Source of the DNA: Oceanidesulfovibrio indonesiensis
Lineage (GTDB): Bacteria; Desulfobacterota; Desulfovibrionia; Desulfovibrionales; Desulfovibrionaceae
DNA: 64,000 nt
Reading direction: 5' to 3'
NCBI RefSeq assembly: GCF_007625075.1
Contig: NZ_QMIE01000006.1
Location: forward strand, 1 to 64,000
This document shows, piece by piece, positions 2,313-31,998 of the stretch. Made by a program: the position numbers and the translations under genes. Below the pieces are notes generated by a model. The model saw only the letters and a list, made by a program, of their open reading frames with translations, was not told the DNA's origin and searched no databases. How positions within the stretch are numbered: the stretch's first letter is position 1; each line of letters starts with the position of its first letter.

Positions 2313-2346
2313 GTTGCCGACCAAACTGGCCGGAAGGTCAAACGCC

Positions 2347-2547
2347 TCAGCTGCCCCCATAGCCTACGGTCACTTTGCCGTCTTCCGTTACGATGACGGG
2401 CACTTTTCGTTGGCCGCCGGAAAGTTCGAGCATCTTGTCCATGTGCGCCTTGTCGGACTTCACCTCGTGGTAAATATGGTCGGGGTACGCCTCACGGGCA
2501 TTGGTGGTGTAGGGTCAGCCAGACTTGCCATAGATGATCGTCGCCAC
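2347..2547 (-). CDS. Glutaredoxin-like selenoprotein with in-frame UGA (Sec) at codon 11
   Basis: Reading from GTG 2547 with UGA as selenocysteine gives 66 residues ending at the UGA stop 2349-2347. The N-terminus is an IIYGKSG strand followed by U-P-Y-T, aligned with CPYC of glutaredoxin; later come a KVPVI strand with the cis-Pro position and an EDGK..VGYGGS end. The UGA (2517-2515) stands exactly at the catalytic first Cys, and the protein has no Cys at all. The RBS GGAGGAGG sits 4 bases before GTG. After the UGA, 2501-2487 folds as a 5-bp stem with a CGUGA loop (AUGCC/GGCGU with one wobble), 14-28 nt downstream, where bacterial SECIS elements lie. It resembles the glutaredoxin-like (seleno)proteins in which UxxT or UxxS replaces CxxC, known from sulfate reducers. 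A pseudogene with a nonsense codon is the alternative and is less likely. Confidence 0.85.
2487..2501 (-). promoter_or_regulatory. Candidate bacterial SECIS hairpin
   Basis: Within the coding mRNA, 5 bp (AUGCC with GGCGU, one U-G wobble) enclose the loop CGUGA, starting 14 nt after the UGA. Bacterial SECIS elements are small apical hairpins with a G and U in the loop at this distance, and they recruit SelB with Sec-tRNA. Position and loop fit; the lower stem is weak. Confidence 0.5.
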
Positions 2548-2922: not shown

Positions 2923-3369
2923 ATGAAGATAATGATTGCGTTTGTGTTTGCGTTCATGTTTGTGTCTGCAATTGCGGTCGACTATGCTCATGCCGAAGGA
3001 ACTGAAGCTGTGGCCGAGAAAGCAGCCGTCGAAAATGCTGTGCCTGCCGCCGAAGCCTGGCTGGCCCTGGTGGACGACGGCGCCTATGAGCAGAGTTGGG
3101 CTGAAGCGGCTTCCATGTTCCAGGCTCACCTGGACAGCCCGGAGTGGGCGAAGATGGTGGACGCCGTGAGGACCCCGCTGGGGCTTGTTCAAAGCCGAGT
3201 TCTCGAGAGTGCGACATATGCTTCAGAACTTCCCGGGGCCCCGGATGGCCACTACGTGGTCATTCAGTACAAGACTGCCTTTGCGAACAAGAAGCAGGCC
3301 ATGGAAACAGTGACCCCCATGCTGGACAAGGACGGGATATGGCGCGTGTCCGGCTATTACATCAGATAG
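2923..3369 (+). CDS. Secreted DUF4019-family protein
   Basis: A 148-residue protein with a signal peptide (about residues 1-24, ending AHA), so it is probably periplasmic or surface exposed. The mature part has the pattern AAEAWLALVDDGAYEQSWAEAA and later a SGYYIR end, which I recognise as the DUF4019 family, whose function is not known. The ribosome site AGGAAGG is well placed before ATG 2923. It stands alone, divergent from the selenoprotein gene. The family call is by recognisable motif layout. Confidence 0.75.
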   Translation: MKIMIAFVFAFMFVSAIAVDYAHAEGTEAVAEKAAVENAVPAAEAWLALVDDGAYEQSWAEAASMFQAHLDSPEWAKMVDAVRTPLGLVQSRVLESATYASELPGAPDGHYVVIQYKTAFANKKQAMETVTPMLDKDGIWRVSGYYIR

Positions 3370-3707: not shown

Positions 3708-3842
3708 CGTCTTGCATTCAAGGAACCATGAATCGCCTGTGAGAGCGGTTTGTGCGAAGGCAAGATACGCTCTCTCTATGAACCTGGATAAATGTGATCA
3801 TGCAACTCATTCGTAGCTATCTCCCTTCTGGTGGATCGCGGC

Positions 3843-4130
3843 ATGTCTGCCGCGTTTCGGGGGAGGGACTGTACCCTGTCGACTGAATCCTGCATAGGAT
3901 GCGGCTGGTGCTGCCTTTCTGATCCGTGCTGGGATTCGCACCGGCGCTACGGCCAGCGGCGACGCTGCCCCGATCTGTACTGGGATGACAAACGGCATCG
4001 CTACATGTGCGGTCTCATGGACGATCCCGAAGTCGGCCCGGCTGTGCGGCATGCGCAGGACGAAGGGGGCGGTTGCTGCGCTCCCCTGAATCCCTGGCGG
4101 CAGGACGTCCGAAATCGTGACGAAGATTGA
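3843..4130 (+). CDS. Small Cys-rich metal-binding protein (YkgJ-like)
   Basis: A 95-residue protein with a CIGCGWCCLSDPC segment near its N-terminus, plus further Cys pairs (RRRCPDL, YMCGLM, GGGCCAPL). CxxCGxCC with later Cys residues resembles the YkgJ/zinc- or iron-chelating cysteine cluster family. Function is unknown beyond probable metal binding. I chose ATG 3843, because GGTGGA lies 7 bases upstream; a GTG at 3831 in the same frame is possible but has no ribosome site. It is isolated between gene-free stretches. Confidence 0.7.
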   Translation: MSAAFRGRDCTLSTESCIGCGWCCLSDPCWDSHRRYGQRRRCPDLYWDDKRHRYMCGLMDDPEVGPAVRHAQDEGGGCCAPLNPWRQDVRNRDED

Positions 4131-4373
4131 GGGTCTTGCAGAAAGTCTTACTGTTCAACTGGGTTTGCGTGGCGTTTGATTTCGTCGATCTGAGCCGCCA
4201 CACACAGGGCTGCATCTGACTCCGCGCGGGAGGCCAAAACGTAAGCACAGTCAGTTGTGCGGAGCGTTCTTCTCGGGCCTCATGCAGAAAAGGGCTTGCT
4301 GAAAAGCTGCGAAGCGCCTACAGCTGCCGGCGCAGATTGTTTCAGGATCATCGAACAGAGCAAGGAGCAAAGC

Positions 4374-4976
4374 GTGCAGGCGTTCTTCAATATTTTCATC
4401 AATTTTTTCATTCTGCTCACGCCATTTTTCGTACTTTCGGTTTTCCTGTCCGTGACACAGGATGAGACACCGGCCCGTCGGCGGGTCATTGCCGTGCGGG
4501 TGACCATTGCGGTGCTCGTCACCACCCTTGTGCTGTTCTACTTCGGCGGATCGATCTTCGAGGTCCTTGGCATCACCCTGGATGCCTTCCGCATAGGCGC
4601 CGGCAGTCTTTTGTTTCTCAACGCAGTGGCGCTCGTTTCCGGCCGCGCCTCTGTCCCAGGCGACCGCGTGGAGGGCGGCGACATGAGCGTGGTGCCTCTG
4701 GCCATACCCATCACGGTGGGGCCCGCCACGGTAGGCGCACTGCTCATATTCGGCGCCAAGGAGCAGTCCATGGGCGAAATGGCCATCGGCAGCCTGGCCC
4801 TGGTCAGCGCCGTGTTATGCGTAGGGATCATCCTGTACGTGGCAACGGCCATCGAACGAATCCTTGGCCGGTATGGCATCTCCATTCTCACCAAGCTCAC
4901 CGGACTCATCCTTGCCGCGTTGTCGGCACAGATCACCTTTACCGGCATAAAAGGTTTCCTGGAGCTGAATCCATAA
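4374..4976 (+). CDS. MarC-family integral membrane protein
   Basis: A 200-residue polytopic inner-membrane protein with about six hydrophobic segments and the family-typical PLAIPITVGPATVGALL motif in the middle. MarC/UPF0056 proteins are of unknown transport or structural function; an early link to multiple antibiotic resistance was not upheld. The start is set at GTG 4374, because AAGGAG lies 7 bases upstream and the encoded QAFFNIFINFFILLTPFF matches the usual N-terminus; the same frame extends upstream to 4257 but that part lacks family similarity. A strong bidirectional hairpin follows immediately. Confidence 0.88.
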   Translation: MQAFFNIFINFFILLTPFFVLSVFLSVTQDETPARRRVIAVRVTIAVLVTTLVLFYFGGSIFEVLGITLDAFRIGAGSLLFLNAVALVSGRASVPGDRVEGGDMSVVPLAIPITVGPATVGALLIFGAKEQSMGEMAIGSLALVSAVLCVGIILYVATAIERILGRYGISILTKLTGLILAALSAQITFTGIKGFLELNP

Positions 4977-5054: not shown

Positions 5055-5450
5055 TTAATTTACGAACGCAGTCTCCACTTCGATGTCGTCCTTGAGGTGC
5101 TTTTTTACGTAGCAGGATTGAATGGCGCGCTCCAGCGGTGCGCGGTGCGCATCCGGAAAATCTTCGGGTGTGGTTATCTTGAAAACGAGTTTCGTCACCA
5201 AGCGGGTCTTTTCGGCGGTTTCGTACTCCATGACAATGTCCAGCCCGTCAGCGTTCAGGCCGCGTTTATCGCAGTAGAGCCGCGCGAAAAACGCTCCGCA
5301 CGTGGCAAGCGAGGCGAGGAACAGGTCCGAGGGTTTGGGCCCCGTACCGTCGCCGCCGTCGGCTTGGGGCTGATCCGTGTGCAGTATGTGGCCGTCCACG
5401 ACGGCTTGGAGTTTTTTACCTTCGAGGATGCGTACGGGAATCTCTTTCAC
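5055..5450 (-). CDS. OsmC/YhfA-type thiol peroxidase-like protein
   Basis: A 131-residue cytosolic protein of the OsmC/Ohr superfamily, which reduces organic hydroperoxides. Two conserved Cys are present, one in LATCGAFF on the central helix and one in AIQSCYVKKHL, as needed for the peroxidatic/resolving pair. GTG 5450 is preferred as start because AAGGAG is 8 bases upstream; the frame stays open further upstream without family similarity. Together with the peroxidase, ferritin and selenoprotein genes to the left it makes a region rich in redox-defence functions, although each has its own transcription unit. Confidence 0.85.
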   Translation of the reverse strand: MKEIPVRILEGKKLQAVVDGHILHTDQPQADGGDGTGPKPSDLFLASLATCGAFFARLYCDKRGLNADGLDIVMEYETAEKTRLVTKLVFKITTPEDFPDAHRAPLERAIQSCYVKKHLKDDIEVETAFVN

Positions 5451-5575
5451 TGGGACAGCTCCTTGCTGATGCATGATGTGTGACCCGAGCAAGGTAGCGT
5501 CTCGGAAACGGGATTGCAAAGAAGATATGTAACTCGACAGGGCTGGATGACGGCCGTTGCCGTTCACAGAAGAGA

Positions 5576-31800: not shown

Positions 31801-31998
31801 TGTTTCCTTAGAAAATGCCCTGGGGTGTACGTGATCGCCTGTGTGTTTTTTGAGCCAACGATCAGAAAACAGGGTGCCGGCCCCGCGGACTGGTGCGCAT
31901 GCCCGCAATTGATGCGGGGAGCCTGAAGGTCTGCGGTAGGCGCCCACCATGCTAGCCATGGTTCAAAAACTCGGGCGACACGGCTCTCTGGGGAATTG
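31801..31998 (+). ncRNA. ssrS: 6S RNA
   Basis: About 195 nt directly after zapA, the classic 6S position. The ends pair (TTCCTTAGA 31804-31812 with TCTGGGGAA 31987-31995, two G-U). Inside are the typical 6S sequences TTGAGCC on the 5' side of the central bubble, GGTGCGCATG of the hairpin loop region, and GCCTGAAGGTCTGCGGTAGGC on the 3' side. 6S RNA mimics an open promoter and holds the sigma-70 RNA polymerase. The exact ends are estimated from the closing stem. Confidence 0.88.

Follow-up and report, generated by a model that had tools for sequence, protein, structure and literature searches.

A two-selenocysteine gene of UXX-star family 1 in Oceanidesulfovibrio indonesiensis, with a predicted hairpin beyond its stop codon

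The first 64,000 nucleotides of contig NZ_QMIE01000006.1 of Oceanidesulfovibrio indonesiensis (RefSeq assembly GCF_007625075.1, forward strand), hereafter the window, carry on the minus strand a small gene with two in-frame UGA codons ahead of its stop codon. By profile comparison this gene is another member, in another genome, of an already recorded family of proteins with two selenocysteine (Sec) residues, namely UXX-star selenoprotein family 1 (NF041114). We consider it reasonably probable, from the alignments and a structural model, that its product is a 69-residue, Cys-free protein of glutaredoxin fold, in which each UGA is recoded at its own selenocysteine insertion sequence (SECIS) hairpin and Sec11 and Sec67 form a redox pair; its identity as a family 1 protein is far surer than this proposed mechanism. 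A preliminary description, made from the DNA alone, had taken the gene to end at 2347 with a complete product of 66 residues. On the comparative evidence set out below, the TGA at 2349-2347 is instead the second Sec codon, and the gene ends at the TGA at 2340-2338. The features of the locus are as follows.

2338..2547, minus strand: the whole double-Sec gene of UXX-star family 1, from its GTG through 69 codons to the TGA that ends it; 108.2 bits to NF041114
2553..2560, minus strand: ribosome-binding site GGAGGAGG, 5 nt 5' of the GTG start at 2547, by direct reading
2515..2517, minus strand: first Sec codon, UGA, residue 11, in the motif UPYT; of 102 members, 89 have UGA here and 13 Cys
2347..2349, minus strand: second Sec codon, UGA, residue 67, previously taken as the stop; UGA in 93 of 102 members, Cys in 0
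2338..2340, minus strand: true stop codon, UGA; among 90 members TGA in 48, TAA in 22 and TAG in 20
2487..2501, minus strand: putative SECIS-1 hairpin, AUGCC-CGUGA-GGCGU; 18 nt from UGA to apical loop; supported by pairing in the alignment, that of two third-codon (wobble) positions included
2317..2333, minus strand: putative SECIS-2 hairpin, CCGGCCA-GUU-UGGUCGG, 3' of the stop codon; 20 nt from UGA to apical loop; supported by pairing and covariation in the alignment

The gene and its family

The minus-strand frame from 2547 to 2347, read through its in-frame TGA, yields exactly the residues given in the preliminary description, VATIIYGKSGUPYTTNAREAYPDHIYHEVKSDKAHMDKMLELSGGQRKVPVIVTEDGKVTVGYGGS, without a single Cys, and the strong ribosome site claimed for it is indeed present. 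Reading past the TGA at 2349-2347 adds U-G-V before the next TGA (tail GYGGS-U-G-V-stop), for a full product of 69 residues with two Sec and no Cys. The suggestion that standard calling hides the gene behind a shadow frame holds in that a plus-strand open reading frame (ORF) at 2314-2583 covers it; this is not the sole overlap, as another frame of the minus strand holds an ORF at 2492-2695 (standard-code ORFs of at least 60 amino acids).

The 69-residue reading scores 108.2 bits against NF041114 (cut-off 72) over profile positions 2-70 of 70. The 66-residue version scores 99.3 bits, and it is the added U-G-V that carries the alignment to the last profile position. A whole-genome profile search likewise returned an NF041114 match containing two TGA codons, and both in-frame UGAs expected of the family (UxxT and U-x-x-stop) are present. 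The relationship to glutaredoxins with Sec at the catalytic position, as first described, is borne out by this match and by the Pfam glutaredoxin family PF00462 (29.2 bits, gathering score 22.9). Of 395 genomes from the phylum, 100 have an NF041114 match over the cut-off; of 14 control genomes none does, although seven have weaker, sub-cut-off matches. As judged from these comparisons, the conservation of the frame (108 bits against a 72-bit cut-off, 100 of 395 genomes) lies far beyond chance. No relatives were found in the plasmid or phage records searched.

The family is listed as 'Distant Grx-like protein 1 (UXX-star selenoprotein family 1)', NF041114, with the motif UxxT and two Sec, in Table 1 of a 2026 review (PMC13188914), and is entered as UxxT in PMC9312934. 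PMC13188914 credits family 1 to the 2008 Global Ocean Sampling (GOS) paper, in whose main text the phrase 'distant Grx-like' was not found. It gives the relatives no functional assignment, which agrees with the earlier remark that they are known and their function is not.

Conservation of the two UGA sites

We examined both sites in 102 members: the window gene, one from a second genome of the genus, and 100 taken from the 103 further rows that pass the cut-off in the draw of 395 phylum genomes. The search gave 104 rows over the cut-off, of which one (G000) is the window gene itself and three (G020, G084, G098) were left out of the sample; a further 40 rows were taken from below the cut-off, 23 of them placed on the tree. 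The C-terminal position is TGA in 93 of the 102 members and Cys in none, and is absent from nine, which have another tail or a truncated match. A stop codon lies exactly three codons past this TGA in 90 of the 93; in flanking DNA the same holds for 818 of 17,250 TGA triplets, or 4.7%. This very pattern served to locate the site in the 90, and a looser motif in the other three (L094, L162, L163), which have no stop at that distance. The true stop varies among TGA (in the 48 members that include the window gene), TAA and TAG, and a preference among stop codons therefore does not account for the invariant upstream TGA.

The UPYT site carries UGA in 89 members and Cys in 13, the latter being the kind of Cys homologue that had been proposed as a check. 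In 78 of 80 members with both U residues the matched stretch is devoid of Cys. Four named genomes matched by the window protein, one of them an Ignavibacterium, have both UGAs; a fifth, of SAR202, has Cys at the first site and the tail U-T-F-stop. Among tail-Sec sequences, the tree shows residue 11 changing from Sec to Cys or back about 10 times; the tail Sec itself is never Cys.

Several individual sequences and loci depart from the common arrangement. Two with the family code of the window genome itself (L144, L153) have Cys at the first site (CPHT) and keep the C-terminal Sec. One sequence under the cut-off (L197, 63.8 bits) has Gly at the first site (GGPYT) and an intact C-terminal U-G-V-stop, and is either a sequencing error or a protein with the tail Sec only. 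Two others (L205, L210) are glutaredoxin-like, combining a full CxxC (CPYC) with a C-terminal Sec (GGUGF-stop). One genome (G368, locus L084) has a tandem pair of family 1 genes at about 5572 and 5997, with starts 425 bp apart and two UGAs in each.

Hairpins downstream of each UGA

The helix proposed for SECIS-2 comprises seven pairs (columns 19-25 with 32-38 of a 93-sequence alignment), in which 86.2% of cells are paired versus 60.4% in shuffled alignments; none of 500 shuffles paired as well, and helices slid along the alignment reach 29-40%. Its covariation score is 0.713 versus 0.257 in shuffles (0 of 500 as high), all seven pairs vary on both sides, and RNAalifold recovered six of the seven unprompted.

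The hairpin noted in the preliminary description 14-28 nt past the first UGA was recovered at 2501-2487. The corresponding SECIS-1 helix lies inside coding sequence, and over 88 distinct sequences 85.0% of its cells are paired versus 78.0% in shuffles (0 of 500 as high), with slid helices at 20-52%. The most telling of its pairs joins two third-codon positions: it is C-G, U-A or U-G in all 89 members with Sec at site 1 and standard in only 7 of the 13 with Cys there (Fisher 1.3e-6, with no correction for relatedness). By this comparison the helix appears to weaken where residue 11 is Cys. When the best hairpin of each sequence was set against 60 shuffles of that sequence, fewer than 5% of shuffles matched it in 62% of members at site 2, and at site 1 in 19% of the Sec members and none of the 13 Cys members. 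As read from these alignments, selection on both UGAs, acting on coding and on RNA structure, is evident.

PMC13188914 gives a range of 16-37 nt from UGA to apical loop for bacterial SECIS elements. The two spacings in the window gene, 18 nt at site 1 and 20 nt at site 2, both fall inside it. With hairpins sought at 10-30 nt only, the second UGA stands within the published range of the SECIS-2 loop in 89 of 90 members, at 16-25 nt, and the loop of 86 of the 90 contains a G. At site 1 the most frequent spacing, shared by 51 of 88 members, is 18 nt. The true stop, 9 nt closer to the loop, falls inside the range in one of 90 members, and in none of the 48 where it is UGA; in the window gene the distance is about 11 nt. 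These positions suggest that a single hairpin could designate one UGA as a Sec codon without affecting the following one, which would still act as a stop. We advance the wider idea tentatively, holding it less likely than not: the family would combine an all-selenium redox couple in a Cys-free protein, a tail Sec with no Cys version, and a natural ruler in the mRNA, in which a hairpin past the stop would make the UGA about 19 nt away a Sec codon and an in-frame UGA 9 nt closer a stop. In 48 of 90 members, the window gene included, the same codon would then have opposite meanings within four codons, with spacing alone deciding. A literature search, largely without subscription papers, gave nothing among the titles listed on the spacing point or the Cys-free tail.

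Selenocysteine machinery

The window genome is a draft of 330 contigs with a completeness of 99.74%. Of the four components that the preliminary description proposed to look for, three score over their cut-offs: tRNA-Sec (81.6 bits against a cut-off of 47, with a further match at 47.1 bits that may be a different tRNA), selA (613.5 bits, cut-off 267.9), and selB (375.4 bits, cut-off 242.25); the fourth, selD, is taken up below. Across the phylum selA is found at E<=1e-60 in 355 of 395 genomes, and its co-occurrence with the family therefore separates nothing. On a reading of the two lists, selA is present in 93 of the 100 genomes that pass the UXX-star cut-off; among the remaining seven, selB is over its cut-off in five and not in two (G165, 73% complete, and G199).

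Fold and proposed mechanism

An AlphaFold2 model, built from five sequences with Cys substituted for Sec, has a mean predicted local distance difference test (pLDDT) of 81 and the order strand, helix, strand, helix, strand, strand, with the second Sec in a tail past the last strand. The model matches thioredoxin-like, glutaredoxin and NrdH chains with modest scores (best VIA Z 8.3). Foldseek found no match to it at E<=0.001 (best 0.004); in sequence comparison, glutaredoxins are the closest chains of known structure (E 3.8e-5). The predicted fold is thus glutaredoxin/NrdH-like.

The fourth position of the motif, Cys in dithiol and UxxC glutaredoxins, is Thr in the window protein and in 88 of the 90 members with U-x-x-stop. 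Including the sequences below the cut-off, Cys occupies it in 3 of 96 with a C-terminal Sec (93 plus 3 of the 40) versus 42 of 46 without one (9 plus 37). This anticorrelation suggests that the tail Sec substitutes for the second of the two CxxC cysteines. An independent-pairs test of C-terminal Sec against motif Cys yielded two pairs and has no power.

We propose that SelB recodes each UGA by way of a separate hairpin, the second of which would lie past the stop codon, and that the true stop UGA may be spared recoding by lying only about 11 nt from the SECIS-2 loop. Sec11 of UPYT would be the glutaredoxin nucleophile, and the C-terminal Sec67 would serve in place of the second CxxC cysteine, which this protein lacks. 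Oxidation would then give an internal Se-Se bond, or an S-Se bond where residue 11 is Cys, which a cellular thiol or a reductase might reduce again. The one-thiol mechanism first suggested for the protein, with no resolving partner, is not supported, because it leaves out this second Sec.

Several observations weigh against this proposal. In the draft genome selD was not found (best 36.5 bits, cut-off 125). All three relatives tried, the other genome of the genus and two of the family, have a selD that passes the cut-off and contains one in-frame TGA, and because of this a gap in the draft is likelier than true absence; the DNA of a relative's selD region has no match in the window genome, which is uninformative. 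The window hairpins taken alone are not unusually stable, with 62 of 200 shuffles equalling or beating the first and 28 of 200 the second; their support comes from covariation across relatives rather than from their own stability. SECIS-1, at -5.3 kcal/mol, falls short of the -7.5 of the model published in PMC13188914; RNAalifold gave no pair for the site-1 alignment; and in 12 of 88 members the best site-1 hairpin stands at less than 16 nt. The count of pairs changed on both sides, the one of five helix measures without separation from shuffles, is as high in 276 (SECIS-1) and 488 (SECIS-2) of 500 shuffles. Turning to the protein, pLDDT is about 63 over the last nine residues, i.e. the tail. 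The tail Sec changes only about twice on the tree, such that its anticorrelation with the CxxC Cys is not independent evidence, and three sequences have both. Lastly, binding of a metal or metalloid by two selenolates fits the same anatomy. The likelihoods that we attach to the Sec11-Sec67 pair and to its alternatives overlap and do not sum to one.

The C-terminal Sec of animal thioredoxin reductase is catalytic and sits on a flexible tail. By analogy, the tail Sec of family 1 might itself be the catalytic centre, with residue 11 as its resolving partner. We regard this as the most credible of the alternatives, albeit unlikely. The repeated switching of residue 11 between Sec and Cys, set against a tail Sec that is never Cys, favours it, as do the Gly-bearing L197, which keeps its tail, and the position of the tail in the least certain, perhaps mobile, part of the predicted structure. 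Against these, L197 may be a sequencing error, and the lack of Cys in the tail may stem partly from how the family model was built.

Gene neighborhoods

The preliminary description placed the family 1 gene beside peroxide-defence genes. Its nearest downstream genes in the window, both convergent with it, are those for a ferritin-like protein, at 1609-2037, and for a CCP/MauG-family di-haem peroxidase, at 436-1590. A tblastn search of six window neighbours against a 12-kb stretch from the second genome of the genus found homologues of four, namely the ferritin-like protein (82% identity) and the ORFs at 2923-3369, 4257-4976 and 5055-5567; the di-haem peroxidase and the ORF at 3831-4130 have no homologue in that stretch. 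Among 100 stretches from relatives, ferritin-like homologues (70-72%) are present also in three genomes that carry a different family code (f28), and in all four cases the gene is convergent and about 2 kb downstream; a peroxidase homologue occurs in only one (41% identity). The iron/peroxide idea stays open for the ferritin and not for the peroxidase.

More widely, single-linkage clustering of genes within 6 kb in 98 genomes gave clusters of a cyclic-nucleotide (cNMP)-binding plus rhodanese protein (18), HhH-GPD (15), SBF (12), NDK (11), and rubrerythrin (10). A cluster of 23, larger than any of these, is confined to the opposite strand and has the appearance of shadow ORFs. The rubrerythrin-type gene is downstream on the same strand in its 10 loci, nine of them in f28 and all 10 belonging to tail-Sec members. 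For the adjoining ORF on each side (89 and 94 ORFs), no Pfam family appears in more than 5 of 89 or 6 of 94; these ORFs were picked by a longest-ORF rule, with shadow ORFs possible and a few omitted, and each set is headed by the window neighbour. Conserved context is a weak guide to function here, and the neighborhood counts carry no background rate and no correction for relatedness.

These neighborhoods bear on a further alternative, which we hold to be decidedly improbable: the two selenolates would bind a thiophilic metal or metalloid (Hg, As, Cu etc.) for sequestration or hand-over, with no redox cycling. In its favour, two Se in a Cys-free protein are the softest ligands, and within 6 kb of the gene SBF-family transporters occur in 12 relatives, ArsP_1 permeases in 10 and ArsR-type regulators in 10. 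However, these arsenic-type genes stand mainly beside the nine members without the tail rather than the 93 with it (SBF 8 versus 4, ArsP_1 8 versus 2, ArsR-type 7 versus 3), the window locus belongs to none of the three clusters, and the two-Sec type is found beside ferritin- or rubrerythrin-type genes in 12 loci. Eight tail-less members (L146, L148, L155-L160) are near both SBF and ArsP_1. A possible picture is an arsenic-linked branch beside a two-Sec branch.

Single-selenium and chance readings

Termination commonly competes with Sec insertion, and UxxT is similar to monothiol motifs. This general background, together with the place of residue 11 at the glutaredoxin nucleophile position, speaks for a monothiol-type mechanism in which Sec11 acts alone (selenenylation, glutathione-like thiol) and the C-terminal UGA mostly serves as a stop, giving a main product of 66 residues. 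We judge it very improbable in view of the C-terminal UGA in 93 of 102 members that is never Cys and the strong covariation of SECIS-2, and it leaves the stop three codons further on unexplained. That the frame is open by chance, with both UGAs ordinary stops, might be argued from its small size and from window hairpins that are individually no more stable than many shuffles, and can be dismissed almost entirely given the conservation across genomes, the family score, the retention of UGA, the helix pairing and the stop at three codons.

Other features of the window

A palindromic element of about 122 bp at 2187-2312 (TTACTGGGAGCA...TGCTCCCAGTAA, with TA on both sides) begins 4 nt past the SECIS-2 hairpin. 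The genome holds at least 40 near-full-length copies, its own included, the others being 88-95% identical (40 of 118 candidates were scored), and the stretch 2182-2320, taken as RNA, folds far better than its shuffles (z -6.1). It resembles a miniature inverted-repeat element whose target sites are TA. Elsewhere in the window, 6S RNA lies on the plus strand at 31814-31998 (98.9 bits).

Significance

The window gene is an ordinary member of a family that is small, almost Cys-free and common in the phylum (100 of 395 genomes). A C-terminal Sec never exchanged for Cys, next to another Sec exchanged about 10 times, makes the family testable, and its Sec-UGA and stop-UGA, 9 nt apart, constitute dozens of natural experiments on the distance limits of SECIS elements. 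The arsenic-type genes beside tail-less members, and the ferritin or rubrerythrin genes beside some two-Sec members, give a first lead on function. The case further shows that a careful reading of sequence can end one Sec short.

Comparison with known systems

The window protein shares the predicted fold of canonical glutaredoxin 3 and NrdH, with VIA Z scores of 8.1 to NrdH (4fiw, 60 residues, 1.9 A) and 7.0 to Grx3 (3grx), whereas it scores just 28.4 bits against the bacterial glutaredoxin 3 model (TIGR02181, GRX_bact; cut-off 90), in a match that ends at residue 59. Like the Sec-glutaredoxins with UxxC of Table 1 in PMC13188914, it has Sec at the first position of the glutaredoxin motif; it differs from them in having Thr in place of the resolving Cys and a short tail that carries another Sec. 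UXX-star families 2 and 3 (NF041211, NF047338) share with it the common subfamily model NF041212 (74 bits, cut-off 66), but it is far under their own cut-offs (NF041211, 39.8 of 100; NF047338, 31.3 of 97), and family 2 has, according to PMC13188914, one Sec and the motif GxGU. With UXX-star family 1 (NF041114), by contrast, it agrees in length, UxxT motif, two Sec, C-terminal U-x-x-stop and a match along the full profile, and differs in nothing essential.
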